NCBI RefSeq assembly: GCF_004802635.2 | Contig: NZ_CP046052.1 | Span: 3,635,501-3,699,500 of the forward strand | DNA from: Methylocystis heyeri | GTDB taxonomy: Bacteria > Pseudomonadota > Alphaproteobacteria > Rhizobiales > Beijerinckiaceae | DNA length: 64,000 nucleotides | Direction: 5' to 3' | Part shown: positions 1,869 to 29,160 of the stretch, in pieces | Layout of the letters: every line of letters begins with the position of its first letter | Numbering within the stretch: position 1 is the first letter of the stretch | Program-made: the position numbers and the translations under genes | Notes under the pieces: model-generated | Seen by the model: the letters and a program-made list of their open reading frames with translations, nothing else | Databases searched by the model: none | What the model was told of the DNA's origin: nothing

Positions 1869-4475
1869 TCAGGCGGGACGCGCTTCAGAGCCGAAGTATG
1901 TTCCGGCTTCCTGCGGAAACGCGGCGAGAAATGCCCTCGCCGAATTCTTCAGAGATTGGTTCTCCATGACTTCCCCGAGCCGCCGGACTCGCTGTGTCTT
2001 GCGGGAGGAAGCCAAAACGATTCCATCCTCGTTCGCCAACAGTGCGCAGGACAGCAGAACATCGGCGAGATTTCGTTCGGCGCTCAGATCCATTTGAGCG
2101 GCCTCCGAAAGCCTCTGGCATGCGTCCGGGCGTTGCGACAACCATTCCCCGACGGGCTGCAAGGCGTTCAGCAGCGCCCGATGCGTCAGAGTAAGGCGCG
2201 CGCCGCCGAAGGGCGGGCAGTCGTGGTTGAGTATGCTCCACGAATATTGAAACGCATCGAAAAAGCCGGGATGGGCCACCGCGATTGTTTCGCAGGCGGA
2301 GCGGTCCGAAGCCACCCCGATCCAGCGCACCAAACCCTTGCTTCGCAGATCGTCGAGAAAGCGCAGGACCTCGTCGGTGACGTCCTCGGGTTCCGCCTGA
2401 TGGAGGAAGAACAGATCCAAATAGTCCGTTCGGAGCCGCCGCAGCGATTCCGTGAGGGAGGCCTCGATCACCGGCAATCCAAACTGCCTGCGCGCTCCCT
2501 GGACCACCTTCGAACCAACGCCCCGCGTGATCATCGGGAGGGCTCGGCGGATTGGAGCCGCCAACGCGCGCGCCGCCATGACGTATGATTTTACCTGGGG
2601 GCGAGCCAAGCCGGCTTTGGAGGCGATCGTCACCTCGCTGCGGCGTCCGACCAAGGCTGCGCCGAGCGCATCTTCCGCGGAGCCCATCCCGTAGCTGGGA
2701 GCCACGTCGAAATGCCTTATCCCTCCCTCCAACGCCGCGTGGATCAGGCGGCTGGATTTACGCTGCTCCCAGCCGGCCGTCAGATACGCGCATCCAAACC
2801 CCAGAGGCGTAGTTTCGACGCCGGCAATTTTCGGGTGGCGCCTTGCCAACGGCTCCACGCGCGATTCGGCCTTCGATTCTGGCGTCCGATCATTCTGCAA
2901 GGCGTCGACGATACTATCACAAACCCGCAGTCCCAAAGCTATCGCCGTGAAGGTCGGATTCGGAAACCCGCTCGACGGATAGACCGCAGCGCCCGCTACA
3001 AAGAGATTCTGGGCGCCGAACACGCGCAAGTTTGCATCGACGACGCCGCCGGCGGCGTCGCCGGCCATGCGGGCGCCCCCCATCTGATGGTTGGCGTCGT
3101 CGATCCCTTGCAAAAAGGCCGGATCGCCAGCAGCGAGCCGAGGATCGAGTTCGATCCGGGCCAGGCCGGCGCCTTCGATATATTCCGCCAGCATCAGGGC
3201 GAAGCGCGATAGTGTGGCGATTTCCGCCTCTTCAACTTTCCAGACCACCTTCACCTGGGGTACGCCCAGGCAATCCCGTTCTTCAGATAAAGTAATGGCG
3301 CTCGACATCAGTGCGCGCTGCTCCGATGTCAAACGAAGTTGGATTCCGAGATCGGCCGGGTTGTACATGCGTCGATAGAAGATATACCGCAGCACCAAAG
3401 GCAACGAGAACCTGAGAATGAACAAGGCCTCGCGCGGCAGTGATTTCAAGTCGACGTCGAAACGCCCCCGCATCAGCGATTTGACGAAGGACTTGGCGAA
3501 GGCCAAATGTTCTGAAAGTGATGAGTTGAAGAGGAAATGACCCGCGATCGAGCCTAGCTCGTGCTTCATCTGGGCGTCGCAGGCCAATTTGAGCTTTGGA
3601 CTGTATTTGACGCCGTCGATGTAAGCATTGTCGAAAATCTCGTGAAAACGCTCTTTGTCGATCGGATAGGCGCTGCCAGCGTCGCAGTCGACATGATCGA
3701 GAAAGCCTTTTCCCAACCAGGGATTGCCGCTCCACGGGGCCGGCTGCCCGGACGCCAGGGGAAGCATGAGCAGCCGTGCGATTTCGACGGTGCCGTTGGC
3801 GAGAACGACGAAAGGGGCTCTGAACGTTGCTTCGCGCCCGGAGAGGCTTTTCGTCCGAGCCCCCACGACGCGATCATTTTCCATCTCGAACGCCGTGACC
3901 TGAGCATCGAGCAACACGGTCAGATTGGGGCTTTTTTCGATATCCTCTGCAAAGAGCTGCGCAAAATTCGGCTCTGGCGCCCAACGGGTGAAGATGAGGT
4001 CGATGTTCGAACTGCTCGCAGGGGGCGTGATTCCGAGCCGCTTCCATACTTCTGGGTCTTCGAGCTGCTGGCGCATTCCGATCAGCTCGAAAGCTCGGCG
4101 ATAATACGCTTGGATTTCCTCCGGAGCGATTGGCCAAGCCGTCTCTTCGCGCCAGGGTCGATCTAAAAAAACCGCTTGGTCCATGGGAACGAGCTGGCCG
4201 CCCCAGAAATTAGTTCCCCCGCCAAGAACGCGAAACCGCCCGGAATGCAACCCCACAAGCGGGAAACCTTCCCAACTGGCTCCCTCCATGAGCGCTTGTG
4301 ATTCTCGGCTTACCCGTTTTGTCCCTGCCTCGAGCAGAAGAACGCGCCTTTGCTTGCGCGCCAGTTCCGCCGCCATGGTTAACCCGACCGCCCCGCCGCC
4401 GACGATGATGATCTCCGGTGCTGGAAGCGCGCCGAGATCCACACGGGATAGTTCGAAAAGCATGTCGCTATACAT
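1869..4475 (-). CDS. GMC-family oxidoreductase fused to an aldo/keto reductase
   Basis: One uninterrupted 868-residue frame carries two complete enzymes. Residues about 21-525 are a GMC flavoprotein: the FAD-binding IIVGGGAVGLTMAAELA, a GGGTNFWGG loop, and the C-terminal HQMGG (His463) and GFPNPT (Asn506) that mark the GMC active site. Residues about 553-865 are an aldo/keto reductase with its tetrad in place: Asp590 and Tyr595 in FDVAPSYGMG, Lys620 in IASKAG, His692 in FFLHQ. The two are joined by roughly 25 hydrophilic residues. An ATG at 4463 is an alternative start with slightly better ribosome-binding spacing. In a polysaccharide cluster, oxidation and reduction at sugar positions (for example an epimerisation via a keto intermediate) is a reasonable inference, not shown. 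Confidence 0.85.
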   Translation of the reverse strand: MYSDMLFELSRVDLGALPAPEIIIVGGGAVGLTMAAELARKQRRVLLLEAGTKRVSRESQALMEGASWEGFPLVGLHSGRFRVLGGGTNFWGGQLVPMDQAVFLDRPWREETAWPIAPEEIQAYYRRAFELIGMRQQLEDPEVWKRLGITPPASSSNIDLIFTRWAPEPNFAQLFAEDIEKSPNLTVLLDAQVTAFEMENDRVVGARTKSLSGREATFRAPFVVLANGTVEIARLLMLPLASGQPAPWSGNPWLGKGFLDHVDCDAGSAYPIDKERFHEIFDNAYIDGVKYSPKLKLACDAQMKHELGSIAGHFLFNSSLSEHLAFAKSFVKSLMRGRFDVDLKSLPREALFILRFSLPLVLRYIFYRRMYNPADLGIQLRLTSEQRALMSSAITLSEERDCLGVPQVKVVWKVEEAEIATLSRFALMLAEYIEGAGLARIELDPRLAAGDPAFLQGIDDANHQMGGARMAGDAAGGVVDANLRVFGAQNLFVAGAAVYPSSGFPNPTFTAIALGLRVCDSIVDALQNDRTPESKAESRVEPLARRHPKIAGVETTPLGFGCAYLTAGWEQRKSSRLIHAALEGGIRHFDVAPSYGMGSAEDALGAALVGRRSEVTIASKAGLARPQVKSYVMAARALAAPIRRALPMITRGVGSKVVQGARRQFGLPVIEASLTESLRRLRTDYLDLFFLHQAEPEDVTDEVLRFLDDLRSKGLVRWIGVASDRSACETIAVAHPGFFDAFQYSWSILNHDCPPFGGARLTLTHRALLNALQPVGEWLSQRPDACQRLSEAAQMDLSAERNLADVLLSCALLANEDGIVLASSRKTQRVRRLGEVMENQSLKNSARAFLAAFPQEAGTYFGSEARPA

Positions 4476-4769: not shown

Positions 4770-6119
4770 TCATGTGATTGTGGGGCTGAAATCTGCCGCC
4801 GGCTCAGACGAACTATCCGGTGGCCGTATTGACGCCACGCGCGTTCGCGTTGGGGCGGTGCTCATTGATACGCAACATCCGGCAAAAAACAGAAGAAGTC
4901 TGCTGGCAAGAAAGGAGAAACTTACCTGGTTCTGGTAGAAAACCGCAATAAATACAGTAGAAATTACGATGAGCTCAGGGTTGGAGCGAGCTTTAAGCGC
5001 CCTTCCTGCTCCAAAGAGAGCTGATCCCATCAGTATCACGAGTGGGATCAAGCCTATTAATCCATTCTCAGCGAGGATCTCGACAAATATATTGTGTGGG
5101 TAGATCCCCGTGAAATGGACTGTGCAGCTGTAGCCGCAACCAAATAATATGTTGTTTGTTTCAATGAGGCTGATGGCGGCCATTAGAGCATTTCGCCTCT
5201 CCATGAGAGCAAGATCGATGATGTCTGCTTTCTTGAGGCCCATTGCGATTGCGATGGTGTCGATGAAATTGTCAAATCTGTCTCCAGAGTCCAGTGTATT
5301 ACTGTTTATATATACATATACGAAGATTACGAATCCAGCCAATACAAGGAAAATTGCAGCCGCAGATATAATCAGCCGGCCGCCGTGTTTATCGAATAGC
5401 CTGGGTATTATCAGTGACATTACAACGGCGACGATTGGTCCCGAGAGCGCACCTCTCGATCCATTCTGTATGAGCAGGTAGGCGCCGCCCGCAATTGTCG
5501 CCATGGACAATATTATCGTTATTATTCCTCCCCTCCAAAAGAAATGAGTTGAGAGAGAGTCCTTCAGGCTTCTGCTCTTGGGCAAAAAAAGCACAAAGAG
5601 CCCTGCAATCAAGCTGGAGAGTTGAACGTTAAATATTAGGGAAAGCCCGACGGCGGCGTCCTCGGCGCCGGTAAACACCAGTCGATCCCACGCCTGGTCG
5701 ACATTTGGGCTGAATATATAAACAGGGAAGACGCAGGCCAGGGCTACGTTCATCCAAAACGTAAAACCAGGAAGGGCTCGGCTGACTACAAATATTCTTC
5801 CTGCGACATAAAATAATATTCCAAAAATATCCTCTTTTGAGGCATTTATATAGTCCTCATCATGCGCCCAAGAGAGAAACCCTACGGAGGTAAACCGGAT
5901 CACAAGGAGCGTAATTGCAGCAATATCGGCGTATAGGATCCTTGAACTACCTCGAAGCCTGGTAATTAAGTTTAGTGCAGGCATGCCGCCTGTCAGGAAT
6001 AGCATCCAGCCAGGAATTATTTGTGACGCAGATAGTGTAAACGTCAATACGCTAAGCCCGACCGCGAGACCGGGGTTTACGGAGGATAGTAGTGTTAGAA
6101 TGGCAATCAGTAAAGTCAT
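4770..6119 (-). CDS. O-antigen ligase / polysaccharide polymerase family membrane protein
   Basis: A 449-residue, very hydrophobic protein with about ten to twelve predicted membrane segments. The C-terminal third holds the Wzy_C signature: a periplasmic loop followed by YPHNIFVEILAENGLIGLI, the arrangement seen in O-antigen ligases (WaaL) and Wzy-like polymerases. Family members join or transfer undecaprenyl-linked chains on the outer face of the inner membrane. Polymerase and ligase cannot be told apart from sequence; the cluster setting makes polymerase the better guess. The reading frame is A+T-rich compared with the enzymes on either side. Its start is 45 bases from the stop of the upstream beta-helix gene, so it belongs to the same transcript. 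Confidence 0.8.
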   Translation of the reverse strand: MTLLIAILTLLSSVNPGLAVGLSVLTFTLSASQIIPGWMLFLTGGMPALNLITRLRGSSRILYADIAAITLLVIRFTSVGFLSWAHDEDYINASKEDIFGILFYVAGRIFVVSRALPGFTFWMNVALACVFPVYIFSPNVDQAWDRLVFTGAEDAAVGLSLIFNVQLSSLIAGLFVLFLPKSRSLKDSLSTHFFWRGGIITIILSMATIAGGAYLLIQNGSRGALSGPIVAVVMSLIIPRLFDKHGGRLIISAAAIFLVLAGFVIFVYVYINSNTLDSGDRFDNFIDTIAIAMGLKKADIIDLALMERRNALMAAISLIETNNILFGCGYSCTVHFTGIYPHNIFVEILAENGLIGLIPLVILMGSALFGAGRALKARSNPELIVISTVFIAVFYQNQVSFSFLASRLLLFFAGCCVSMSTAPTRTRVASIRPPDSSSEPAADFSPTIT

Positions 6120-6164: not shown

Positions 6165-8180
6165 TTACGGACGAAAGAACTTTAGATGGGTACGCTCTTT
6201 CTGTAACGCAGTGAGACCGCCTAATCTAGATCTGAAGGCGTCTTTGACGGTCGACGTCACGTCAGTAAAGAGGCCTGATCCGCTCGACGAGCGGAAGCAT
6301 CCTTCGACGCCGGACCCACTATCCTTGAATCTCTGGTTATCATCCTTGAATTCCACGTAACACTCGGTTCCCCGCTCGAGTTTCGCAATCTTGGCCGTCG
6401 TGTAGGCGTTCCTCTGAACGACATTGTATTGCGGTGCAAAAGGTCGATCGGACAGAAGATCGCTGAGCCGCGGATATCGTTCCTTCCACGGAGATGATTT
6501 GTACGGTACGGAATTTAATCTTTGAAATAGCAGGCCGCCCCGTTCTTCGTTCAAAAGGTTTTGCCAGCCGGGTTTTTCGCGTGAGGTTACCCAGAACGGC
6601 TCGTTCTGAATTTTGCAAAAGAAATTTCCGGCGATGTTGGTGTCGCGTCCGCTATTCAAAAAGATCGCCCGTTCGAGATTGTAAAAGATATTGCCCTTCA
6701 CAAGGGCGCCGCCGGTATGGTCGTCGAAATAAATGCCGAGCGCGTTCCATTCCCGATCGTCGCTGAACGAGCGGATGTCATGTATATAGTTGCCTACAAT
6801 CTTGACGCCGTAGCCGGTCCAGTCGCGCCATGTCTCTATAGCGCCTGCATCCACCGTCTCTCTGACGACGTGAGAAATTTCGTTGTCCTCGATCAGATGG
6901 TCATTGCCCAAATAGCGGATGGCGTTGTGAGGCCCGCGGGTGATGAGCGTGCGCCTGATAATTTGACCCACCCCATCCAATTCCACGCCCGGTCGTCCTG
7001 AACGAATGTCTTGCCCGAAGTCGGCGATGATCGATTCCTCGACGGCATGACCCGAGGGTTTGAGAATCTGGCGATCTCCCCCTTTCATCTCGACGCCCGT
7101 CTCGCCTGTCTCGGCGACGACGCAGCGTGTCAGAGAGACGTTTTCTCCCCCGCTGACCACCAGACCGCGGCCGCCAGCCCTGCCGATAAAGCAATCGCGA
7201 AAGGCGATATTTGCACTGTCCTCGACCTTCACGGCGTCGCCGTGAGCCTTTTCGAGGGCGAGACCTTCTATCAGAACATTTTGTGCATTCTTGATCAGGA
7301 GGAGGTTTTCAACGATGGGGGCCTCGATCGGAGCTTCTGAGCGGGGTCGAAGGGCGATCAAGGCTTTTTGCCTGTCGACGTAGAAGTCGCCGGGCGCGGT
7401 CAGCTCCGACAAGGCGTTTTCAACGAAATAGCGATCGATGGGCCTCATCGGATAGGGGCCGTTCCAGGGGTTGGCCGCGAATGCGTCCAGGGACGCATCA
7501 TAGAGTTCGATCCCGTCGCTTCGCCAATGCCAGTCCATGCCCCAGAAGGCGCCGATGCGAAGGCCGGACTCGCCCTTCCAATCCTGAAATTTCTCTCGAG
7601 GCGCTGAAAATTTCACGCGTCGGTCGTCTCCCTGGCCGGAATCCAGCAGGCCCGACATAACGGCGAATCCCGACTTGGGCCAGCGCGCCGGCGTCAGCCG
7701 TTCTTCGCCCTGGTACAGGATGATCCCGCGGCGGGACGATCCGGGAGGCGCTCCTGAGCTCGCCGCTTGTTCTCCAGCTGACAAGGCGGTCAGAGCATCG
7801 TCGAAAGTTATGAGGCGGACGTCGCCCGACGGGGGGGCGCCCCCCTGGGGGCCTAGAGGACGGCCATCGTAGGCGACGGAAGGAAGAAGCCTGGCGCCGA
7901 GAAGCACGGGCTTCGCATCCGCCGCGGCGCGCAGCTTCAACGAGCCCGTAACGCCAGGGGGAAACTCGATGCGCAGTGGGCGCTGCAGTCGATATGAGCC
8001 CTCCGCCAATTCAATCGTCGCTTCGCCCGCAGGAGTCGCCGACAAATACTGGACCGCAGCAGAAACAGCGGATTCCAGAGAATCCGCGCCATCCACCTTT
8101 CTCGAGAAAGCTTCGCTCCATGCTGGAACAGTGAAGTTGGCCGCGCTCGCCATCGCTGAGAGAATGAACAGGCGTCTCAT
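6165..8180 (-). CDS. Secreted right-handed parallel beta-helix protein
   Basis: 671 residues beginning with a signal peptide (MRRLFILSAMASAANFTVPA, cleavage near WSEA). I chose the ATG at 8180 because AGAGGAG precedes it and because the signal peptide starts there; the frame is open for 34 more codons upstream without a plausible leader. The middle of the protein has successive short strands separated by G/N turns (NVLIEGLALEKAHGDAVKVE, NIAFRDCFIGRAGGRGLVVS and similar), the pattern of PbH1 repeats in polysaccharide lyases, hydrolases and C5-epimerases. In a polysaccharide cluster such a protein usually trims or remodels the polymer in the periplasm. The catalytic class is not identifiable here. 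Confidence 0.8.
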   Translation of the reverse strand: MRRLFILSAMASAANFTVPAWSEAFSRKVDGADSLESAVSAAVQYLSATPAGEATIELAEGSYRLQRPLRIEFPPGVTGSLKLRAAADAKPVLLGARLLPSVAYDGRPLGPQGGAPPSGDVRLITFDDALTALSAGEQAASSGAPPGSSRRGIILYQGEERLTPARWPKSGFAVMSGLLDSGQGDDRRVKFSAPREKFQDWKGESGLRIGAFWGMDWHWRSDGIELYDASLDAFAANPWNGPYPMRPIDRYFVENALSELTAPGDFYVDRQKALIALRPRSEAPIEAPIVENLLLIKNAQNVLIEGLALEKAHGDAVKVEDSANIAFRDCFIGRAGGRGLVVSGGENVSLTRCVVAETGETGVEMKGGDRQILKPSGHAVEESIIADFGQDIRSGRPGVELDGVGQIIRRTLITRGPHNAIRYLGNDHLIEDNEISHVVRETVDAGAIETWRDWTGYGVKIVGNYIHDIRSFSDDREWNALGIYFDDHTGGALVKGNIFYNLERAIFLNSGRDTNIAGNFFCKIQNEPFWVTSREKPGWQNLLNEERGGLLFQRLNSVPYKSSPWKERYPRLSDLLSDRPFAPQYNVVQRNAYTTAKIAKLERGTECYVEFKDDNQRFKDSGSGVEGCFRSSSGSGLFTDVTSTVKDAFRSRLGGLTALQKERTHLKFFRP

Positions 8181-8209
8181 GATCGCTCCTCTTTGACCGC
8201 CGCGCAGTT

Positions 8210-9373
8210 CTAGGCTTCCCCGCCACATATGTCGGCCGCGAGGCGGTCGTATTGGGCGAGAGACAGCTGACGCAATTCGCAAAAGCGCGCTCGGGCGGCG
8301 TTTTGCCTCTTTCGAAGCGACTCGGGTTGGAGGAATGTGTGGAGAATTGCGAGCGTTTCAGAAATCGGCGCCGCCGGCTGAATGACGCACTCTTCGGAGC
8401 CGAGGCATTCGGAAATATAGCCGTGGTCGGTTGCAATGACCGGCACGCCATAACTCAGCGCCTCCAATACGACCAAAGGTTGCGCTTCGTACTGATACCG
8501 GGTCGGAAAGAAAAAGACGTCTATATCCCGAAAGAAATCCTTTTTGCTTGGTCCCGACACGGGACCCCGAAAATCCAGCGTGTTTCCGAGAATCTCCCGC
8601 GCCTCAGCAATTGCTTCGCTCGCCTCGCCGGTCGCTGGTCCCGCTAAGACGAGCCTAAGGTCGAGACCTGCCTCACGTGCGGCGACCACTGTCTGGATCA
8701 CGGTATCCAGGCCCTTTTCAAGACTCAAATTGCTCAGGTGCCCAATCGTCAGGGGCGCTCCCTCAATTCTGCGGCTTCGTGTTTCGCCGGGATCGGCAAC
8801 CGCGCAGGCGTTGTGCGCAACGAGAATCCTGTCTATTCCAGCGTAACGAGACGCCAAATCTTTCGCCATCCGCTCACTCAGGACGATATGCGTCACAGGA
8901 CCGGCGAACCACAGAAGAGCCCGAAATCGAGCCGAGGTTGCCAGCGTATGTTTCGCGGAGTGGTGATGAAGGAACACTTCGTAGCTGAAGGCGCGTGCGA
9001 GGAACAGAAGCGCGAAATTGTAAAAAATGCCGTGGCCGGCCTCCAGGACCGAGTAAAAAACTCTCCCTTCACGGCGCCTATGGGCAAAAAGATAGTTCAC
9101 GGCCACAATGACGCGAAGCAACCGTTTTGAATGGTAGGCCACACGGCCAGCAGTAGCTCCGGGCGAAATGTCGGCGACTATTGGTTTCTGGCCTGCCTCT
9201 TTAAGTCTGTTTATCACAGTCGCGTTCACGTATGACTGGCCGTGCAGCGGCGGCGGGAGCGCGACTGCGGCGACGATCTGAACCTGTGAAGCGTTTTGTG
9301 TGCGGACGAACTCTTCCGGTGTTTTCCCCAGCTCATTCTCACTCATTAAAGCTGGGCTGTTCTCATATCGCAT
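8210..9373 (-). CDS. Glycosyltransferase family 4
   Basis: A 387-residue GT-B glycosyltransferase. The C-terminal half has the GT4 layout: TIGHLSNLSLEKGLDTVIQT, a central LRLVLAGPATG strand, then the nucleotide-sugar site DVFFFPTRYQYEAQPLVVLEALSYGVPVIATDHG with the conserved E-x7-E pair. An ATG nine codons in (9346) is an alternative start; neither has a strong ribosome-binding site. The stop lies 29 bases before the ATG of the beta-helix gene, so the two are likely one operon. The donor and acceptor sugars are unknown. Confidence 0.88.
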   Translation of the reverse strand: MRYENSPALMSENELGKTPEEFVRTQNASQVQIVAAVALPPPLHGQSYVNATVINRLKEAGQKPIVADISPGATAGRVAYHSKRLLRVIVAVNYLFAHRRREGRVFYSVLEAGHGIFYNFALLFLARAFSYEVFLHHHSAKHTLATSARFRALLWFAGPVTHIVLSERMAKDLASRYAGIDRILVAHNACAVADPGETRSRRIEGAPLTIGHLSNLSLEKGLDTVIQTVVAAREAGLDLRLVLAGPATGEASEAIAEAREILGNTLDFRGPVSGPSKKDFFRDIDVFFFPTRYQYEAQPLVVLEALSYGVPVIATDHGYISECLGSEECVIQPAAPISETLAILHTFLQPESLRKRQNAARARFCELRQLSLAQYDRLAADICGGEA

Positions 9374-9672: not shown

Positions 9673-10440
9673 TCAGAGCGAGGTGACGTGTTCAAGCGGC
9701 GCCAGAAGATGCTCTCTTAAAAATATCATGTCGGCCTGGAGTGGCAGGCCGTGAGTCAAACTGACTTGATTGAACACCCCCGCCAATCGAAAGCCTGCTT
9801 TATTGAGGTAATCAATCACCTCCCATGCGCACGCCTGACTTTTATATAGGGGGACATATGAAACTTCACAATAAATCACGGCGAAGCGATCGAGATAGTC
9901 GTTCGAAGCCATGAGGACCTCGAGTTCGAAACCCTGAACGTCGATCTTGAGTAGATTGAATTTGCCGAACTCTTCCACGCGAATGAATTCTCTAAGAGGA
10001 CCACAATGTACCTCTTCCGTCCTGATGGCGCGGGTCCCAAAGGCGACGGATTGCAAATCGCCGACTTCCAGCAACGATGACGAGTCGTCGTGCTCAGTCA
10101 CGTTGATGAGACGCTTCTCCGGGGACGGACTGATAGCCGCATTAACTAATCGGACACGCTCGTCGGAACCGAAGATCGATCTGAAAATCGCCGCAGGTTG
10201 TGAAAGTGGTTCGAAACAAATTACCCGACTGGTTGGGAACCTCTCCAGTGCAAAAGCGGCGAATTGGCCTTTGTTGGCTCCGACGTCGACGATGAGATCG
10301 AAATCGTTTTCGAACCGGGCGAAGGCGGGTTTGTGCTCAATGCTCGCAAAAACGCCTCGTGTCGCCGCCTTTCGGAAGGTTCGAGTCGATACAGCGGCCG
10401 CAAGTTTGCGGATCCTGAGGACAGCACGGGAAATATCCAC
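9673..10440 (-). CDS. FkbM family methyltransferase
   Basis: A 255-residue FkbM-type SAM methyltransferase. The SAM site VDVGANKGQFAAFAL lies near residue 51, followed by VICFEPLSQPA, and the family's NLLKIDVQGFELEVL stretch is intact near residue 160. FkbM members O-methylate sugars or polyketides and are frequent in exopolysaccharide and O-antigen clusters, where terminal methylation can end chain growth. It is the third methyltransferase in this cluster. Nearly 1 kb without a convincing gene separates it from the sugar dehydrogenase upstream, so it may have a separate promoter. Confidence 0.88.
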   Translation of the reverse strand: MDISRAVLRIRKLAAAVSTRTFRKAATRGVFASIEHKPAFARFENDFDLIVDVGANKGQFAAFALERFPTSRVICFEPLSQPAAIFRSIFGSDERVRLVNAAISPSPEKRLINVTEHDDSSSLLEVGDLQSVAFGTRAIRTEEVHCGPLREFIRVEEFGKFNLLKIDVQGFELEVLMASNDYLDRFAVIYCEVSYVPLYKSQACAWEVIDYLNKAGFRLAGVFNQVSLTHGLPLQADMIFLREHLLAPLEHVTSL

Positions 10441-11393: not shown

Positions 11394-12725
11394 TCAGGCT
11401 TTGAAAATATTGTCGCCGGTTATCGAACGACGAGTATAAATATTTCTAGTGTCGACGACAATAGATGCCGCGCTTCTCAGGGCGTCATAGTCGATTACGT
11501 CGTGATCCGTTACTACGAGCGCCACGGTGAATTTTTCAGCAGCGAGGTCTTCCCAGTGGATTGACTTACGACCGGTTAGATTTGCGTGCTCACGCGTCGC
11601 AGGTATCACGGGAACATGAGGATCGTAGAATGAAACCTTCGCCCCTCTGTCCTCCAATATCTCAATGATACGCAATGCGGGACTTTCGCGCATATCATCG
11701 ATGTTTTTCTTGTACGCGATGCCAACAACCAATACATTGGTCGCCGAAAGACCTATTTTTAAATTCGCATCTACGTGTCGCGCGACTTTTTCCACGACGT
11801 AGCGAGGCATGGTCGTGTTCACTTCGCCGGCTAGCTCGATAAATTTCGTCGAGACCTCAAATTCGCGCGCCTTCCATGTCAGATAGAAGGGATCGATCGG
11901 AATGCAGTGCCCCCCCAAGCCCGGGCCCGGGTAAAACGGCATGTAGCCAAAGGGTTTTGTCTTAGCAGCCTCGATTACTTCCCAAACGTCGATGCCCATT
12001 GCGTCGTAAACTATTTTCAACTCGTTCACGAGCGCGATGTTTACAGCGCGAAAAATATTTTCAGTCAGTTTGGCTGCCTCAGCTGCTCGGGTTGAGCTCA
12101 CAGATGTAACTGAGGAGACGATATTTTCATACAACGCGACCGCGAGCTGCAACGACGCCTCGTCGTCGGCTCCAACCACCTTCGGAATGGTTCTTGTCGT
12201 AAAGTGAGCATTGCCCGGATCTTCGCGCTCAGGAGAAAAGGCGAGGAAGTAATCCGTTCCGTAGACCAATCCTGTCGCGTCGAGTATTGGCTTGACGACT
12301 TCCGCTGTAGTTCCGGGCCAGGTGGTGGACTCCAATGCAACGAGTTGGCCTTTCCTCAGCTTCTTTGCGATAACTTCGGTGGTCCTTACTACGTGAGTGA
12401 GATCCGGGTCACGGTTTTGAGTCAGAGGGGTGGGCACGCAAATGATGACGGCATCCACCTCATCGAGTCGCGAGAAGTCCATCGTCGCATTTAAAAGGCC
12501 CGTATGCATCGCTTCCGCGATCGAACCGGCGGAGATATGCTTGAGATAACTCTGGCCCGCGTGGATAGCTTCGATTTTATCCGGGTCGATGTCAAACCCG
12601 AGGGTTCGATATCCACCCATCGCTGCCGATAAAGCCAACGGCAACCCGACGTAGCCCAGGCCAACGATGCCGACGCTGATTTTTTTAGTCTTGAAGTCCT
12701 CAAGCAGCTGATTGATGGCTATCAA
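11394..12725 (-). CDS. UDP-sugar (probably UDP-GlcNAc) 6-dehydrogenase
   Basis: A 443-residue nucleotide-sugar dehydrogenase of the WbpA/UDP-GlcNAc type. NAD-binding VGIVGLGYVGLPLA is at about 18-31, the central ALESTTWPGTT and FSPERED motifs are present, and the catalytic cysteine is Cys274 in GPGLGGHCIPIDPFYLTWKA. The C-terminal domain (VLVVGIAYKKNIDDMRESPA) is complete. It oxidises the C6 alcohol of a UDP-hexose(amine) to a uronic acid, which predicts an acidic sugar in the polymer. An N-acetyl-sugar substrate is favoured by the WbpA-like active-site sequence and by the neighbouring YdjC-type deacetylase, but UDP-glucose cannot be excluded. Confidence 0.88.
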   Translation of the reverse strand: MIAINQLLEDFKTKKISVGIVGLGYVGLPLALSAAMGGYRTLGFDIDPDKIEAIHAGQSYLKHISAGSIAEAMHTGLLNATMDFSRLDEVDAVIICVPTPLTQNRDPDLTHVVRTTEVIAKKLRKGQLVALESTTWPGTTAEVVKPILDATGLVYGTDYFLAFSPEREDPGNAHFTTRTIPKVVGADDEASLQLAVALYENIVSSVTSVSSTRAAEAAKLTENIFRAVNIALVNELKIVYDAMGIDVWEVIEAAKTKPFGYMPFYPGPGLGGHCIPIDPFYLTWKAREFEVSTKFIELAGEVNTTMPRYVVEKVARHVDANLKIGLSATNVLVVGIAYKKNIDDMRESPALRIIEILEDRGAKVSFYDPHVPVIPATREHANLTGRKSIHWEDLAAEKFTVALVVTDHDVIDYDALRSAASIVVDTRNIYTRRSITGDNIFKA

Positions 12726-12817: not shown

Positions 12818-13582
12818 CTACGTTCTGGTGAGCGCGTCATAGGTAATCAGGTCGACTTCCGCATCAAGCCCAGCGCGCCAATCGCTGCGTATCAGCTGAG
12901 TTTCGTCCTCGAAATCCGGATGACCGGGGTGGCACATAATTTCAATGACCGCCCCGTCGAGACGCTTCAGATTCGACCTGAGTGCAGATAGATCAGTAAA
13001 ATAATCGGTAGTGTGACACTTGCCGATTGCGCGGAGCGCCGTGTTCCATATTTGCTTCTTCAGGCGCTGCGATGTGTTGGGGGCGTTCGCTGGCGCGTAT
13101 AGATTTTTGGTCAATCGGGCCGCCTTAATTCGATTTGCCTGTATGAGATATACGAGCAAAGGGAAAAGCATCGGTCGAGTGTGGATGTGGTGGTGCGAAT
13201 CAACGTGGCTGATGCGCCCCAGGGCGCTCCGCACGCGATTAATCTGGAGTTGAAGCTCTTCAATAATCGCGCGTTGTAGCGGAAGGCCGGGAGTTTGCGG
13301 TAATTGAGCGCTGGAAAATTCGCCGTTGCCGTCGAGTAGTGGTTCCAGCTCGGGATTTTTCGATAGGGGAGCAAATTGAGTAATATTCAAATGGACGCCG
13401 AAGGAGCATTCGGGAAGTTTCTTGGCGAAGGCGATCGCCTGATCGAACTCAGGGCCGTTGGCGATGATGGTGGCCGAGGTGACGGCCTTTGCTTCCATTA
13501 GTTCTGCGGTTTCGAGGTTGGCTTTTTTTGAAATTCCAAAATCATCGGCGTTCATAAGGCATTTGATGTATGGCCGCGTCAT
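12818..13582 (-). CDS. ChbG/HpnK (YdjC) family carbohydrate deacetylase
   Basis: About 254 residues with the metal-binding motifs of the YdjC fold: NADDFG near the N-terminus, VHLN, SHVDSHHHIH and MCHPGHP. These enzymes remove N-acetyl groups from amino sugars. I take the ATG at 13582 (MTRPYIK) as the start; a longer start nine codons upstream adds nothing conserved. It sits between a sugar dehydrogenase and GT4 genes on the same strand, so de-N-acetylation of a lipid-linked or polymeric amino sugar is the likely role. A second, clearly different paralogue (hpnK) is at 47381-48244. Confidence 0.82.
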   Translation of the reverse strand: MTRPYIKCLMNADDFGISKKANLETAELMEAKAVTSATIIANGPEFDQAIAFAKKLPECSFGVHLNITQFAPLSKNPELEPLLDGNGEFSSAQLPQTPGLPLQRAIIEELQLQINRVRSALGRISHVDSHHHIHTRPMLFPLLVYLIQANRIKAARLTKNLYAPANAPNTSQRLKKQIWNTALRAIGKCHTTDYFTDLSALRSNLKRLDGAVIEIMCHPGHPDFEDETQLIRSDWRAGLDAEVDLITYDALTRT

Positions 13583-13727
13583 TCCTCTTACGCCTTCTGC
13601 ATATAGCAAATGGTCAACGCTTCAAAAGTTTCGCGCTGAACCTGAAATTGAGGCCAATTCGTTCTGGATGCTTTTTTCGTTTCAGTTGCAGTTCATTACT
13701 GCGGAGGTGGCGATTTTTGACAGACCC

Positions 13728-14855
13728 TTAAGAATGCAGCACCTCGTTCACTGCTCGAAAATTTTGGACCATCGTTTCGATTTGGAGTTTTTCGTTGACG
13801 AATGAGGGGATGCGTTGTTTCAGACGCTCAAATCCCGGCTGGTCATCGAATAATTCGACAATGGCCGAAGCCATGCCGGAGGCGCCGGATTCGGACGCCA
13901 CGAGACGACCGGTTTCATTGTCGACGACATAAGCGATCTCGGGCCCATGAAAGGCGCCGCGCGGACCGCTTTCAAATGCGACGACGGGAATTCCGTAAGC
14001 CAGCGCATGGTTGATGGATAGTCCGCCTGGTCCGGGCAAAACGAAAATGTCGGAACCAAGAAACCAGGGCGCTAGTAGGTTTTCTTCGTATATTCCTTCG
14101 AGAAGGCTGATCCGCCCGTCTCCGCCACGGTTTCTCCATTCCTGCTGCAATGAATTGGCTTCCTCGCCTCCGCCGATCACAACGAGTCGCGCGTCTGGGT
14201 ACCGCTCCGCAACCTTTGCGAAAACATCGAAGAGCAAGAGAGCGTTGCGCTCCTTCGTCAAGCGCCCGCAAAAAAGCATTTGGGGCCAACCGAAACGATA
14301 TGCGTTTTGCGCATTGGCGGCGGCGTTTCGCGGTCCGGCAATGTCAATTGTGTTTTCGATCGTCACGGTCGGGATTGAAGGATCGACGCTCGAGATCCAA
14401 TTTTTTCCTGCTTCCGTGTATGTCGCGACGACATCCGCCTCTTTAAATAGGCGAAGCCTGACATTGTCTGATAAGCACGCCAGCACACTGCCCGGTTTTC
14501 GAGCAAGGTTGGGGCCATGAGTATGAAACGCGAGGCGGTTCAGACGCCCTACATGGCGGGCCAACGCGAAAACATACGTAGCCGGGAAATAAAGCGAAAA
14601 CTCTGAGATGAGCGCTACGTCTCGGGGCAGAGCCTTTAGAACCGAGAGTATGTCCGTGGGATAACGCGGGTCGTTGCAAAAAAAATCTATGGGAATGCGC
14701 TTTAGGTATGGCTGGTCTCCAACGAAACTCAAACCGCTCCCTGCAGGGGGCTCTGCGGCCGTTATCACAGTCCAACCGTATTCTTGATGCAAACGTCGAA
14801 AAAGCGGCTCCCTATAGTGGGGCACGACCTTCTGGAAAAAGTAAACCTCTCTCAT
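13728..14855 (-). CDS. Glycosyltransferase family 4, paralogue of the next cluster GT
   Basis: A GT-B enzyme of about 375 residues starting MREVYFFQKVVPHYR, with the GT4 C-terminal features: LFCGRLTKERNALLLFDVF, ARLVVIGGGEE, and a donor site with GSDIFVLPGPGGLSINHALA. I chose the ATG at 14855 over a TTG five codons upstream because it aligns with the start of the paralogue at 15506-16627. The two share the opening VYFFQKVVPHYR, the MSEFSL/ISEFSL stretch and the GPGGLSINHALAYG/GHGGLSINHALAYG loop, so they arose by duplication and probably add similar sugars. The donor is unknown. Confidence 0.87.
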   Translation of the reverse strand: MREVYFFQKVVPHYREPLFRRLHQEYGWTVITAAEPPAGSGLSFVGDQPYLKRIPIDFFCNDPRYPTDILSVLKALPRDVALISEFSLYFPATYVFALARHVGRLNRLAFHTHGPNLARKPGSVLACLSDNVRLRLFKEADVVATYTEAGKNWISSVDPSIPTVTIENTIDIAGPRNAAANAQNAYRFGWPQMLFCGRLTKERNALLLFDVFAKVAERYPDARLVVIGGGEEANSLQQEWRNRGGDGRISLLEGIYEENLLAPWFLGSDIFVLPGPGGLSINHALAYGIPVVAFESGPRGAFHGPEIAYVVDNETGRLVASESGASGMASAIVELFDDQPGFERLKQRIPSFVNEKLQIETMVQNFRAVNEVLHS

Positions 14856-15505
14856 GTAAATCAGATCCAAGCTGTGAGTTACTGAAGCGCCACAGTAGTC
14901 ATTTCCACCGGGGGCTTTGACCCGGCTTTATCGGCCGTCAACAGGGATTCCAATCCAATGATGAATTTCGAACGACGACGCGGAAACGTCGGAATTCGTG
15001 AGGGTTCGATCCCACTTTGTCGAAGGTTCATGTTGTAAAGAAGACCAAGGACCCCGCCGTTGAAATTCGAACGGTAATTTGAGCGTGCATATTTTCCAGA
15101 TTGCAGCGCGGTTTCCATCGGGAGCCCGGGCCGAATGATGACGTAGCCGAGATGCTGGACGCTTTGGCCGGCAGATGAATTTTGTCGGAGTGATCTTTGT
15201 CGGAATTACGCTGTCCACACTCCCGCCCCCGACGTTTCTCTCAGCCATGAAAATGTGAAAATAGGGGCTCCTTGAAACCTTTGATGGGATGCGTGGGTAG
15301 AAAGGCCGGAGTGTGAGCGAACCGTCTGGCGCAGCTTTTGGACTGGGCGCGGCGATACTTCGCGCGCGAAGATCGCATCATCAACAGGCGATTGACCCCG
15401 GTCGTTCTTACTCTGTCAGCGATCCGCTCGAGAGGATCGCGCGTCCGTGCGGCGTCAGGCGCCGAAGAATCGGTGCGCTGGACGCGAACCGCCGCCTGGA
15501 AGATT
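14856..15505. other. Intergenic stretch between duplicated GT genes
   Basis: 650 bases between the two paralogous glycosyltransferase genes. Several short open frames exist on both strands but none has recognisable domains or a convincing start. I see no clear terminator. It may hold remnants from the duplication. Confidence 0.4.
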
Positions 15506-16627
15506 TCATGATCGCAATATGGCGTCGACCCGGCCAAAATTGTGAACCATCGTCTCGATCCGCAGTCGGTCGTCAACGTACCGGGGAATCGAGGTGCGAA
15601 TGCTGTCGAGTTGATCCGGCTCGGCTAGAAGCGCGCATATCTCCGAGGCCATTCCATCGATCCCCTTCGTTGGTTCGACCAGTCGGCCCGTGGCTCCCGA
15701 TTGCACATATTCGATCTCGGGCGCGTGAAAAGAGCCGCGCTCGTCGGAAAAGGCGATTACCGGCAATCCATAGGCGAGAGCATGATTGATCGACAGACCG
15801 CCATGGCCGGGAATTATGAATAAATCCGACCCCAGAAACCAAGGCGCCAACTTCTTCTCTTCGTAAATCGCCTCGAGATAGACAATTCTTTCGTCGTCGC
15901 CACGTTTCCGACGCTCTCTCAGCATTACGGGCAGATCCTCGCCTGAGCCAATGACCACAAGTCGTAGATCGGGATATGTCGGCGCCAGTCGATCGAAGAG
16001 TTCCAGGAGCAAGGGCGCTCTTTTCTCGGGCAGCAACCGTGAACAGAACAACAGTTGCGGGAAGCCGAGACGGTGAGCCGTGGCGGTCGCCGCTGCAGCG
16101 CGCACATTGCCCACATCGATGGTGTTTTCGATCGTAACGGTTCTGACGCCAGGAGCGACACTATTGATCCATCGTTCGCCGGCCGAGGTATAAGTGGCGA
16201 CGACGTCCGCCAATTTGAAAAGTTGGACCCGAAGGGCGTCCGACAAAAACGCCATCGGCGCGCCGACCGGATGGGTCAGATTTTGACCATGAGTATGGAA
16301 GCCCAACCTTTTTATTTTTCCTGTGTGGCGCGCCGCCGCAAAGAGATAGGTTAACGGGAACCGCAAGGAAAACTCCGACATCAGTGCGATCGGCCCCGGT
16401 AGCCGATCGAGCGCGGACAAACCGCATGTCGGGTAATTCAAATTGTTTTGAAGGAATACGATCGGTATGTACTCCATGAAAGGCTCATGGGAAGACAGAA
16501 GCAATCCCCTTGGGTCGGGGGTGTGCTCCGCCGTTAGAACTTTCCAACCATAGGCGTGATACAAAGCGCGAAATAGGGCCAAGCGGTAGTGCGGCACGAC
16601 CTTTTGAAAGAAATATACATTAGTCAC
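15506..16627 (-). CDS. Glycosyltransferase family 4, first GT of the cluster
   Basis: A 373-residue GT-B enzyme beginning from GTG with TNVYFFQKVVPHYR. GT4 hallmarks are LLFCSRLLPEKRAPLLLELF, LRLVVIGSGED, and the acceptor/donor loop FLGSDLFIIPGHGGLSINHALAYGLPVIAF. It is clearly paralogous to the downstream gene at 13728-14855 over its whole length. It is the first sugar-acting gene after the RfaH-like regulator and its leader, the position often taken by genes whose expression depends on antitermination. Substrates are not deducible. Confidence 0.87.
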   Translation of the reverse strand: MTNVYFFQKVVPHYRLALFRALYHAYGWKVLTAEHTPDPRGLLLSSHEPFMEYIPIVFLQNNLNYPTCGLSALDRLPGPIALMSEFSLRFPLTYLFAAARHTGKIKRLGFHTHGQNLTHPVGAPMAFLSDALRVQLFKLADVVATYTSAGERWINSVAPGVRTVTIENTIDVGNVRAAAATATAHRLGFPQLLFCSRLLPEKRAPLLLELFDRLAPTYPDLRLVVIGSGEDLPVMLRERRKRGDDERIVYLEAIYEEKKLAPWFLGSDLFIIPGHGGLSINHALAYGLPVIAFSDERGSFHAPEIEYVQSGATGRLVEPTKGIDGMASEICALLAEPDQLDSIRTSIPRYVDDRLRIETMVHNFGRVDAILRS

Positions 16628-17210
16628 CTATCTTACCCCGCCCCTGCCGTTTCGGAGAGAGAGCCAAGCGCAGTGTGAATTGCTACTGGTTCCCAGTGTT
16701 GGAGGCTCGCTGCGGCGTCCACGCCGCGCCTGTTTTTATTTAACCGTAGTCGTCATTCGGGGCCCGTAGAAATATCTGGGTTGCGCACATTCATCGCCTG
16801 CGTGCGTATTTCTCGCCCGATGTCTCCCGGCGATTTCAGGCTGAAAGGCGTCGGCGAGGGCTTGAGGAACCGGCGTCAATAAACCGGCGCCTTTCGGATC
16901 GTCTGCACCTCGAGGCTGGTCGAAATGAGGGCCACTCCGCTCAAGATGCATTCTCAAAATATCGACCTCGAATCTGATGCTCTCGATTCACCCCCGATGG
17001 ATCGCCCTATGACGAAGCGACCATCTAGGCGTCATGCGTATTCCCCACGCTACCGCCATTCGGGTGCGTCTACACGCATCCGTCGTTGAGCCACGAGCGC
17101 TGGCTCACTTCCATCCCGCACGGACTCGCGCACAATGGAATCGATCGTGTCTCTTTACGCCGGACAAGGAATGTCCGCCAATAGCTTAGCGGCTTTTCCA
17201 GTATGCCCTT
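16628..17210 (-). other. Long untranslated leader of the polysaccharide genes
   Basis: 583 bases between the RfaH-like gene and the first glycosyltransferase, with no supportable gene. A 70-codon frame near 16736-16951 has no conserved features. The stretch contains the exact ops motif (17046-17057), so it is best read as a transcribed leader through which polymerase must be made processive. Confidence 0.5.
17046..17057 (-). promoter_or_regulatory. ops element (RfaH recruitment site)
   Basis: Read on the minus strand this is GGCGGTAGCGTG, identical to the 12-base ops core of enterobacterial JUMPstart leaders, where paused RNA polymerase exposes the non-template strand and recruits RfaH. It lies on the coding strand of the cluster, about 155 bases past the stop of an RfaH/NusG-like gene and about 420 bases before the first glycosyltransferase. 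A given 12-mer is expected roughly once per 17 Mb of random single strand, so its occurrence in this leader is unlikely to be chance. That the local NusG paralogue reads it is inference. Confidence 0.7.
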
Positions 17211-17747
17211 CTAACCCAGCCGCTCCACCCATTCAAGCGCCGCAGAAGTGCGGATATGCCCGCCCATTATCTCGAGTAAAACTTCGACGCGACCGCGTTC
17301 GTCGAGGCGTTCCAAAATGCCGAGAGCATGCGCCAATGGCCCCGCCGTCAAGCGCACCTTCTGGCCAGGCTGCATATCTTCTGCGATCCTCATCCGGCCG
17401 ACGGGATCGGCCGACTGGATGAGATCCTCCACCACGCCGACCGGAACAGGCGCCGGCCGATCGTCGACCATGAAGAGACCGGCGACGCCGATCGTACCGT
17501 TGACGCTGCGCCAGCGATCCCGGCCGAGATCGAGTGAAACGAAGAGATAACGCGGAAATAGCGGAGCGTTGACGGTCCGCAACTGTCGCGCGTGCCGCAC
17601 AGTGCGCGGGCGTCGCGGCAAAAAGCTGTGAAAGCCCTGGGCTTCCAGCTGCATTTGAGCCGTCCCCTCCTTATGCGGAAGGGTTTGCGCCAGATACCAT
17701 CGCCGGCTTGTTGCCGCCATCGACTGAGACAAAGCCCGCAAGTTCAT
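17211..17747 (-). CDS. NusG-family specialised antiterminator, RfaH-like
   Basis: About 178 residues from the ATG at 17747, which has GGAG five bases before it; the longer frame from a TTG is less likely. The N-terminal NGN domain is clear: RRWYLAQTLPHKEGTAQ, then APLFPRYLFVSLDLGRDRW, closely matching RfaH's PLFPNYLF region. A KOW-like C-terminal segment follows (QPGQKVRLTAGPLAHALGIL). Such paralogues bind paused RNA polymerase at ops and suppress Rho-dependent termination in long surface-polysaccharide operons. It is the first gene of the minus-strand cluster and is followed by a leader containing an exact ops motif. It is not the housekeeping NusG, which sits with secE and rplK. Confidence 0.85.
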   Translation of the reverse strand: MNLRALSQSMAATSRRWYLAQTLPHKEGTAQMQLEAQGFHSFLPRRPRTVRHARQLRTVNAPLFPRYLFVSLDLGRDRWRSVNGTIGVAGLFMVDDRPAPVPVGVVEDLIQSADPVGRMRIAEDMQPGQKVRLTAGPLAHALGILERLDERGRVEVLLEIMGGHIRTSAALEWVERLG

Positions 17748-26764: not shown

Positions 26765-27154
26765 ATGTCTGCGCCTATGCCTGGTGATAGAAGTTTCCAA
26801 CTGATCGAAGCCGTGGTTGATCGTCTTGATGGCGCTCCGGTTTCTCGCCGTCGCCGGTGGTCTGACGAGTTCAAGGCACGAGCTGTTGCGGCGACACTGG
26901 ATCCCGACGTGAATATTTCCGCGGCCGCGCGGGAGATGGGCATTTCGCCGTCTCAGCTTTTTGGCTGGCGCCGGCAAGCGATGCGCGAAGGTGCGGTGAC
27001 GGCCTCGCCTACCGCTTGCGCGAATCCGCCGGATGTCGAGGGCAGGTCTGCGCCAACGGTGGAAATCTCCGTCGGCGCCACAGTGATCCGCGTCAGCGCC
27101 GACATTGGCGAAGCCGATCTGCGTCGCGTGATCCGCGCGGTGCGCTCGGCATGA
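26765..27154 (+). CDS. tnpA: IS66 accessory protein TnpA
   Basis: 129 residues with a helix-turn-helix of the transposase-8/IS66 OrfA type: RRRWSDEFKARAVAATLDPD, then ISAAAREMGISPSQLFGWRR. It is the first gene of the IS66 element and overlaps tnpB by four bases (ATGA), implying translational coupling. In IS66 elements TnpA is needed together with TnpB and TnpC for efficient transposition. Confidence 0.9.
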   Translation: MSAPMPGDRSFQLIEAVVDRLDGAPVSRRRRWSDEFKARAVAATLDPDVNISAAAREMGISPSQLFGWRRQAMREGAVTASPTACANPPDVEGRSAPTVEISVGATVIRVSADIGEADLRRVIRAVRSA

Positions 27155-27495
27155 TCGCGTCGGGCGTGAAAATCTATCTGGCCAGCCAACCGGTCGATTT
27201 TCGCAAAGGCCCGGACGGTTTGCTGTCGCTGGTGCGCGATGTCGGCGCCGACCCGTTCAACGGCGCGCTTTATGTGTTCCGGGCCAAGAGAGCCGATAGA
27301 ATCAAGATCGTTTGGTTTGATGGGACCGGCGTGTGCCTGTTCTCGAAGCGATTGGAGGAATCGCAATTTTGCTGGCCGCGGATCGGGCCAAACCAGGTTC
27401 AACTCAATCATGCCCAGTTGATGGCGCTGGTTGACGGATTGGATTGGAAACGGGTGCGTCCGGTCGACCTCAAACGCCCGGTCAGCGCCGGCTGA
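27151..27495 (+). CDS. tnpB: IS66 accessory protein TnpB (IS66 Orf2)
   Basis: 114 residues of the IS66 Orf2 family: VKIYLASQPVDFRKGPDGLL, then FRAKRADRIKIVWFDGTGVC and KRLEESQFCWPR. The start is the ATG that overlaps the tnpA stop; the frame extends further upstream but without conserved sequence. Full length for the family, so probably functional. Confidence 0.92.
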   Translation: MIASGVKIYLASQPVDFRKGPDGLLSLVRDVGADPFNGALYVFRAKRADRIKIVWFDGTGVCLFSKRLEESQFCWPRIGPNQVQLNHAQLMALVDGLDWKRVRPVDLKRPVSAG

Positions 27496-27567
27496 ACGGT
27501 CGGAAAATCGGCATGATTACGTTGAAAACACGAGCGTTTCCACTGGATCTGTGCTTTAATCATCCTA

Positions 27568-29160
27568 ATGAAAATGCTCGATTTTCCGCTTCCTGACGAT
27601 GTTGACGCGCTGAAAGCGCTGGTCCGCGTCATGGCCGAAAAGGCGGCGCGCACAGAGGCGCTCGAAAGCGAAATCCGCGACCTCAAAGTCCTCAATGCGG
27701 CAGCTGACGAACGCATCGCCCGGCTGACTTCGATCCTCAAGGCGCTGGAGCGAAACCGCTTCGGCAAGCGCTCGGAAAAGCTGGGGGCTGCCGCGGCCGA
27801 ACAGCAGGCCTTCGTGTTTGAGGAGATCCAGACCGGCATCGCCGAAATCAAGGCGGGGCTGGACAAAGCGGGCGGCTCGGCCAAACAAAAGCGGGCGCCG
27901 CGTCCGCGTAAGGCGTTCGCCTCTCATCTTGAACGGGTCGAGGTGGTGATCGAGCCCGAGGTACCCGCCGAACATCTGGGCAAGGAGAAGATCAAGATCG
28001 GCGAGGACGTTTGTGAACGCTTGGACGTCGAGCCGCCGCGCTTCCGGGTGATCGTCACCCGCCGCCCGAAATACGCCTTCAAAGACGTCGACGTCGATGG
28101 CGTCATCCAGGCGCCTGCTCCCGCGCGCATTATCGAGGGCGGCATTCCCACCGAGGCCCTGTTGGCGATGATCGCCGTCTCCAAATACGCCGACGGCCTG
28201 CCGCTTTATAGGCAGGAAGGCATTTACGCCCGCGACGGGGTCGAGCTTGATCGTTCGCTGATGGCGCAATGGATGGGGCGGCTTGGCTTCGAACTGGAGC
28301 CGCTTTCGGACCATGTGCTGTGGCGGATCAAGCAGAGCCCGCGCGTCTTTGCCGACGAGACGACGTTGCCGACGCTGGAGCCCGGCGCCGGCAAGGCGAA
28401 GAAAGCCTATTTATGGGCCTACGCGAGAGACGATCGGCCCTTTGGCGGCGGCGATCCGCCGATGGTCGCCTACCGCTTCGAGGACAGCCGTTCCGGCGAT
28501 TGCGCCTTGCGGCATCTGAAGGGGTATTACGGCATTCTGCAAGTCGATGGCTACGCCGCCTATCAGCGGCTGGCCGGGGCAGATCGCGGCGAGAAGGCTT
28601 TGCTCCTGGCCTGCTGCTGGGCGCATCTGCGCCGAAGATTTTACGAACTGCATGTCGCCGGCAGCTCCAGCTTGGCCACCGCTACGGTCGAGCGGATGAA
28701 GGATCTCTGGTCGGTGGAAGACCAGGTTCGCGATCTGATGCCGGACGATAGGTTGGCGGCGCGCCGCCAATCCTCGGCTCCGATCGTCGCCGAATTGTTT
28801 GCGCGCTGGGAACGGGAGCTGGCGCTCATCTCGGGCAAATCCAAGCTCGCCGAACACATCCGCTACGCTTTGGGGCGCCGAGCCAGCTTGGAACTGTTCC
28901 TCGCCGACGGCCACGTCGAGATCGACTCCAATGTAGTCGAGCGGGCGATCCGGCCCCAGACCATTACAAGAAAGAATGCGCTCTTCGCCGGTTCCGACGG
29001 TGGTGGCCGGACGTGGGCAACTTTGGCGACCCTGCTGACCACCGCGAAAATGAACGGCGCCGATCCATTCGCCTGGCTCAAGCAAACCCTCGAGCGCATC
29101 GCCAACGGCTGGCCAAACCGCGACATCGAGGCTCTCATGCCCTGGAATTACGTCGCCTAA
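27568..29160 (+). CDS. tnpC: IS66 transposase TnpC
   Basis: 530 residues, full length for an IS66 DDE transposase. The N-terminal coiled coil and LKALERNRFGKRSEKLG leader region are followed by a zinc-binding/IS66 central region (EVVIEPEVPAEHL, FRVIVTRRPKYAF) and the DDE core: VFADETTLPTLEPG, LQVDGYAAYQRLAG, and HVEIDSNVVERAIRP near the C-terminus. The stop is 22 bases inside the right inverted repeat end. No disruption seen. Confidence 0.94.
   Translation: MKMLDFPLPDDVDALKALVRVMAEKAARTEALESEIRDLKVLNAAADERIARLTSILKALERNRFGKRSEKLGAAAAEQQAFVFEEIQTGIAEIKAGLDKAGGSAKQKRAPRPRKAFASHLERVEVVIEPEVPAEHLGKEKIKIGEDVCERLDVEPPRFRVIVTRRPKYAFKDVDVDGVIQAPAPARIIEGGIPTEALLAMIAVSKYADGLPLYRQEGIYARDGVELDRSLMAQWMGRLGFELEPLSDHVLWRIKQSPRVFADETTLPTLEPGAGKAKKAYLWAYARDDRPFGGGDPPMVAYRFEDSRSGDCALRHLKGYYGILQVDGYAAYQRLAGADRGEKALLLACCWAHLRRRFYELHVAGSSSLATATVERMKDLWSVEDQVRDLMPDDRLAARRQSSAPIVAELFARWERELALISGKSKLAEHIRYALGRRASLELFLADGHVEIDSNVVERAIRPQTITRKNALFAGSDGGGRTWATLATLLTTAKMNGADPFAWLKQTLERIANGWPNRDIEALMPWNYVA

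Follow-up and report, generated by a model that had tools for sequence, protein, structure and literature searches.

RfaH of Escherichia coli is a NusG-family protein with polysaccharide operons as its targets, and in the accessible text of Wang 2020 (PMC7593976) only E. coli RfaH has a recruitment mode that is known in detail. The ops element has a role in both pausing and recognition, with U11 as the pause base and eleven ops-contacting positions in the protein (Zuber 2018, PMC5995543). Autoinhibition of E. coli RfaH requires E48 and F130 (PMC7593976). The JUMPstart RNA of gammaproteobacteria (Rfam RF01707; Weinberg 2010, PMC2864571) has a stem-loop directly 5′ of ops, which in E. coli K-12 consists of a 5-bp stem, one G, and ops. 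LoaP is a NusG paralogue that acts on a long operon, the leader of which contains both an RNA hairpin and a pause site; as far as the accessible part of the report on the dfn leader goes, the hairpin itself shows no discernible pause, the pause lies downstream, and ops is no part of the leader (PMC12691694). UpxY of Bacteroides, also a NusG paralogue, has its gene inside the operon that it targets (PMC7593976).

RfaH-like proteins are already known in Alphaproteobacteria, which hold 18% of rfaH genes (PMC7593976). A 2019 review, in its accessible text, reports recruitment data for no specialised NusG paralogue except RfaH, and it suggested recruitment in cis for paralogues encoded in or near their operons (PMC6391919). 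Among the matches listed in a literature search, no title or beginning of an abstract dealt with an ops element in Alphaproteobacteria; bioRxiv and most subscription papers were outside its coverage. The proteins are known, and what appears to be new is their putative loading signal.

Here we describe a locus in a 64,000-nucleotide stretch of the Methylocystis heyeri genome (the window). We interpret the leader behind its RfaH-like gene as a composite loading signal for the protein encoded just upstream, which would serve a long polysaccharide operon, and we assign this reading a probability of roughly 85%. The locus shares with the E. coli system a NusG-family protein and polysaccharide operons as targets, and its ops 12-mer agrees at every base with the one in the K-12 O-antigen leader. 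In contrast to E. coli RfaH, the regulator is encoded in cis, before its site. This arrangement resembles that of UpxY, for which we know of no ops site, and the RNA hairpin in the leader of a long operon resembles that of LoaP.

The leader, its composite element, and the operon behind it

The leader (16628..17210, minus strand) extends over 583 nt between the RfaH-like gene (17211..17747, minus strand) and the first glycosyltransferase gene (15506..16627, minus strand), as described in the original prediction. The reported identity of the 12-mer GGCGGTAGCGTG at 17046..17057 (minus strand) with the ops core is likewise exact, and this copy is the only one in the window. The original prediction also argued from the rarity of such a match. 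The exact 12-mer occurs once in the 4.73-Mb genome, as does the reversed-pattern control. Because base composition predicts approximately 1.5 exact copies genome-wide but 8e-5 in the leader on this strand, the place of the 12-mer is striking and the 12-mer as such is not; the argument holds for position only. If the 12-mer stood by chance beside an unrelated hairpin, the genome-wide expectation would be accounted for, but neither the expectation for the leader nor a position that is kept across the class (see below) would be, and we give this explanation practically no weight.

The earlier account of the leader was incomplete, as it missed an adjoining hairpin and a distant second site in the genome. 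The hairpin half, CGGATGCGT-GTAG-ACGCACCCG (17061..17082, minus strand), folds as RNA with one A-C mismatch. The composite element consists of a hairpin whose 3′ arm contains TCACCC, followed by [GT]GCGGTAGC[GA]TG, and GGCGGTAGCGTG is the 3′ half of the element. The aligned sites have the consensus TCACCCGRAN-KGCGGTAGC[GA]TGG, in which the pairing partner of TCACCC is a GGGTGA-type arm farther upstream. When the element model was run across the window, the sole good match was at 17043-17087 (33 bits); an extra copy elsewhere in the window was rejected, the next matches (28034 and 913) scoring only 11.6 and 10.1. A consensus scan of the leader (16628..17210) found no terminator-like site on the minus strand and recognized no promoter.

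The element resembles JUMPstart in having a stem-loop directly 5′ of ops, but the stems of the window type have other sequences, are mostly longer, and occur in Alphaproteobacteria. Membership in Rfam RF01707 was rejected: the window scores 18.3 bits where the gathering threshold is 35, which none of 13 related loci attains either.

Permutation, arm-pairing, and spacer tests were carried out on 109 of 122 non-redundant sites; of the 13 dropped sites, 11 came from genomes that lack the gene (one of these 11 is site-like) and two were judged to be chance matches. At least three of the five CACCC letters are paired upstream in 106 of the 109 sites, with a distance of 11-16 nt from the end of the stem to the pause base of ops. 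The arms fold better with their own partners than with permuted ones (mean −12.73 versus −11.23 kcal/mol, sd 0.13; 0 of 200 permutations), a statistic that is inflated by kinship among the sequences. With all 122 sites kept, the means are −11.99 for own arms and −10.40 for swapped arms, and 90 of 122 sites are better than their own swap mean. Two pairs change on both sides among nine sequences that were chosen for equal loops, a biased selection for covariation. For the 4-nt spacer, pairing that would extend the stem amounts to 208/431 (0.483), compared with a mean of 0.423 for swapped arms (0 of 500). Because this excess is modest, we rejected a general pairing of the spacer into the stem, and the stem end probably differs between lineages.

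The conserved parts could in principle form a double-stranded DNA operator, in which the inverted repeat and GCGGTAGC are bound by a conventional transcription factor and no RNA or pausing signal is involved. The hairpin arms are an inverted repeat in DNA as well, and the sites are intergenic. However, the loops of the 109 selected sites vary from 3 to 11 nt in both parities, 69 of their 975 pairs are G-U, and the core equals E. coli ops. In addition, the sites follow the stop codon of the RfaH-like gene on the same strand, and the presence of the pattern tracks that gene (see below). We consider an operator very improbable and prefer the composite loading signal.

Several individual loci show variations of the element. 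A longer possible stem, GCACTCCG...CGGAGTGC, which would pair into the first ops bases, is found in L021, L048, L052, L058, L060, and L181, and GCACGCC...GGCGTGC, as judged by eye, is a matching double change in it. In L005, L034, and L102, which include the two closest relatives of the window protein, a C replaces the flipped-out T6 of ops (GCGGCAGC); inspection by eye of two of these three revealed no pattern relating the variant to protein residues. A near-identical pair of elements approximately 1.8 kb apart on one strand was seen in L047, 66 and 1824 nt past the gene (G267:C47:93594 and 95352).

The cluster 3′ of the leader is co-directional with the RfaH-like gene and is of the polysaccharide type. 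The family search identified the gene next to the leader as a glycosyltransferase of the Glyco_trans_1_4 family. It is followed, always on the minus strand, by a second, similar glycosyltransferase (13728..14870), a ChbG/HpnK-like deacetylase (12818..13609; model matches below cut-off), a nucleotide-sugar dehydrogenase (11394..12725; TIGR03026, 409 bits), an FkbM-type methyltransferase (9673..10440), a glycosyltransferase (8210..9373), a right-handed beta-helix protein (6165..8282), and an O-antigen ligase/polymerase-like membrane protein (4770..6119; Wzy_C, 28.9 bits, below the cut-off of 31.7). Then come an FAD/GMC oxidoreductase fused to an aldo-keto reductase in one frame (1869..4475) and two further open reading frames (1035-1793 and 60-887). 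Judged by location, this leader appears to carry the RfaH-type trait of an ops element ahead of the target genes. The tandem glycosyltransferases at 13728-16627 are alike, with YFFQKVVPHYR near the start of both, and are probably a duplication. Elsewhere in the window, near Rhs-like frames, the frames at 26765-29160 resemble what we take to be the three proteins of an IS66-type element.

Conservation of the element and its co-occurrence with the gene

Loci were gathered by the protein alone, which gave 61 non-redundant RfaH-like genes. The top 8-mer within 300 nt downstream is GCGGTAGC, present at 42 of the 61 genes, compared with one upstream and none in antisense; the best shuffled 8-mer reached five. 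GCGGYAGC occurs within the same distance downstream of 45 genes, 50-198 nt past the stop codon (median 74); in the interval 60-360 nt before the matched gene start, it was present in two of 61. An ACCC arm stands just 5′ of the core in all 45 loci. A search downstream of orthologues, suggested along with the original prediction, thus recovered the motif. Orthologues without it had been named there as evidence against the idea, and the core is indeed absent within 300 nt downstream in 16 of 61. Six of these core-less genomes (G025, G003, G162, G333, G122, and G037) have a site elsewhere before a polysaccharide-type gene; no site was found elsewhere in the remaining ones. Eight of 69 records were examined as plasmid neighbourhoods, where the core lies downstream of the gene in three (Mesorhizobium sp. 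AR02, Sinorhizobium chiapasense with the T6C variant, and Ensifer adhaerens with an altered arm) and is absent in five.

The association was also examined at the level of whole genomes. Of 397 genomes of the order, 78 carry RfaH-like genes (80 in total) and 76 carry the loose pattern CACCCNNNNKGCGGTAGC (82 sites). Gene and site occur together in 59 genomes, the gene only in 19, the site only in 17, and neither in 302, corresponding to an odds ratio of 55 (Fisher p 6e-38). The pattern is therefore present in 59 of the 78 gene-bearing genomes versus 17 of the 319 others; the 19 gene-bearing genomes without it have no match to CACCCNNNNKGCGGTAGC anywhere. Almost half of the sites (40/82) are on the strand of the gene, 69-272 nt past the matched part of the RfaH-like gene. 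These 40 belong to 15 families by hand count, and 12 of them come from one genus. The loose pattern exceeds its reverse only modestly, with 82 matches versus 56 in the order (hand count) and 22 versus 5 in 61 relatives. A covariance-model search of the order had matches in 63 of the 397 genomes, but because several weak ones cover the hairpin part only, we relied on the patterns and the neighbourhood.

When 327 genomes of the class were searched with the stricter pattern CACCCNNNNKGCGGTAGCNTG, 26 sites were found, compared with none for the reversed control; in 14 of the 26 cases, the stop codon of a same-strand RfaH-like gene lies 38-144 nt before the site. In a phylum sample, it matched 8 of 339 genomes and the reverse matched none. 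Two of these matches, by hand count, are among the 233 genomes outside the class. One adjoins an RfaH-like gene, and the other has no RfaH-like gene within the 1.7 kb examined. L250 has the element and an RfaH-like gene outside Alphaproteobacteria, with a K at the apparent K10 position (RCKPRQE, by eye). The proposal of an RfaH-like regulator with an ops-type element outside the enterobacteria is thus upheld, and the arrangement is kept in place far beyond the Methylocystis heyeri genome.

The RfaH-like protein

The proposed loading factor is a NusG paralogue of 178 amino acids (PF02357, E 3.6e-15). Its best NCBIfam model is RfaH (TIGR01955, 94.4 bits), below the cut-off of 144.5; it also falls below the cut-offs for LoaP (NF033641, 44.1 bits against 125) and UpxY (NF033644, 63.5 bits against 100). 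Two NusG-family genes were found in the genome, and the other one (102 bits) is presumably the housekeeping nusG. The window protein has an NGN domain (PF02357) and a KOW-type C-terminal domain, and its predicted model matches NusG and RfaH chains.

Residue equivalents were mapped from an alignment to E. coli RfaH, and conservation was counted over 26 rows. The four residues with which E. coli RfaH reads bases, K10, H20, R23, and R73, are replaced by L23, Q33, A36, and I86 in the window protein, and they are kept in 1, 5, 9, and 1 of the 26 rows, respectively. In contrast, all 26 rows agree at the equivalents of Q24, N70, and T72, and G74 and V75 are kept in 25 and 23; the window protein retains all five. 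The T68 equivalent is S in 24 rows, and that of A71 is G in 25. The RNA polymerase-binding residue F56 corresponds to F69 in the window protein and is kept in every row. Comparison of the ops-contacting residues, proposed with the original prediction, therefore gives a divided answer, with the five positions above retained and the base-reading side chains exchanged. W79 and R80 are invariant and R78 is found in 25 of 26 rows (RWRS). This stretch and RHAR (51-54) may provide new contacts to ops.

The protein also differs from E. coli RfaH at the autoinhibitory interface, where E48 is replaced by A and F130 by L; R138 is kept. AlphaFold2 predicted the C-terminal domain as strands (pLDDT of about 78 over residues 131-178), at modest confidence from a shallow alignment. 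The Rho-contact residues of NusG, I-F-G, correspond to I-M-G.

The replacement of all four base-reading residues would be in keeping with the element being a hairpin-stabilized pause for general factors (NusA, NusG, or ribosome loading) and the RfaH-like protein being recruited without reading ops, and ops-like sequences are reported to pause RNA polymerases of diverse bacteria (Wang 2020, PMC7593976). On the other hand, the presence of the pattern follows the gene, and the window protein still has the equivalents of Q24, N70, T72, G74, and V75. The top 8-mer also contains bases 3-8 of ops, which in E. coli are important for RfaH recruitment and not for pausing (PMC5995543). A general pause is in our opinion unlikely, and a loading signal read by the RfaH-like protein is preferred.

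Proposed circuit and candidate targets in trans

During transcription of the leader, the nascent RNA hairpin would fold 11-16 nt behind the consensus pause at ops. Its conservation and matching arms are observed, and its folding in the cell is expected from them. The polymerase would then halt in a position that exposes GCGGTAGC on the non-template strand, whereupon the RfaH-like protein would bind and remain as an elongation and antitermination factor through the polysaccharide operon. The order, strand, spacing, conservation, and co-occurrence of the parts are features of the sequences; the pause, loading, and antitermination are proposed by analogy with E. coli RfaH.

The original prediction envisaged a self-reinforcing, all-or-none switch. 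Because the site is located 3′ of the regulator coding region, loading there comes too late to increase transcription of the regulator gene itself, and this order prevails (45 of 61 downstream versus 2 of 61 upstream). We rejected the switch for the window locus on the order of its parts. Since the regulator gene precedes the loading site on the same strand, the circuit would be feed-forward in cis, and this loading in cis, combined with action in trans, appears to be the better reading. Same-strand sites upstream of the gene are present in G266 (~460 nt), G175 (5.4 kb), and G066 (22.8 kb), where self-activation is conceivable.

Action in trans is suggested by the second site in the same genome (C1:1300740-1300757(-); full element C1:1300734-1300779, equal to L085 8735-8780 (-)), which is 2.35 Mb from the window site. 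Its core is TGCGGTAGCATT, without the G at position 12, and it directly precedes a gene for a Wzy_C membrane protein. This gene is followed by a chain-length/tyrosine-kinase-like and a methyltransferase-like protein, both named from their sequence and not by family search. Judging from the site, the RfaH-like protein may act on this second polysaccharide operon.

The first large same-strand frame behind non-adjacent sites is of the polysaccharide type in 17 of 20 cases, counting sugar-nucleotide enzymes, DegT aminotransferases, glycosyltransferases, and sugar transferases; the other three are an asparagine synthase, a Gfo/Idh oxidoreductase, and one frame without a family. The 20 frames represent 18 of 25 non-adjacent sites of the order, together with L086 and L087 from relatives; for L205, the second large frame was taken. 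The scan left out the second site of G267 as well as G266, G040, G082, G248, and G125, and the second site of the present genome was scanned separately. The 18 include some sites that lie close to the gene without adjoining it (G397, 1.2 kb; G385, 2.0 kb; G286, divergent at 1.3 kb). As a control, 10 of the 17 sites from genomes that lack the gene were scanned in the same way, and only one was of the polysaccharide type; that one has a site-like spacer. Eleven class sites have no gene in the 1.5 kb examined, and the 10 scanned gave two DegT aminotransferases, two ABC transporters, two nucleotidyl/cytidylyl transferases, one formyltransferase, and three without a family. At a twelfth class site (L198), the gene is divergent at 886 nt.

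A wider and more tentative proposal, which we find possible but rather doubtful, is that Alphaproteobacteria use a class-wide loading code in which an RNA hairpin, as for LoaP, is combined with non-template ops, as for RfaH. It would be read by other side chains (the RWRSVNGT patch and the RHAR motif in place of K10, H20, R23, and R73), would operate without alpha-helical autoinhibition, and would include a hand-over from ribosome to polymerase. Given the median distance of 74 nt from stop codon to core, a terminating ribosome may hand the fresh protein to the polymerase paused just ahead. If this is true, the regulator would prefer its own operon.

A class-wide loading signal of this putative kind, with candidate targets in cis and in trans, would make regulons predictable from sequence. 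As the ops bases are identical and the residues that read them are altered, the evolution of recognition and of autoinhibition would be directly testable. The recurrence of the element beside surface-sugar genes in many relatives suggests how RfaH-like helpers may find their targets.
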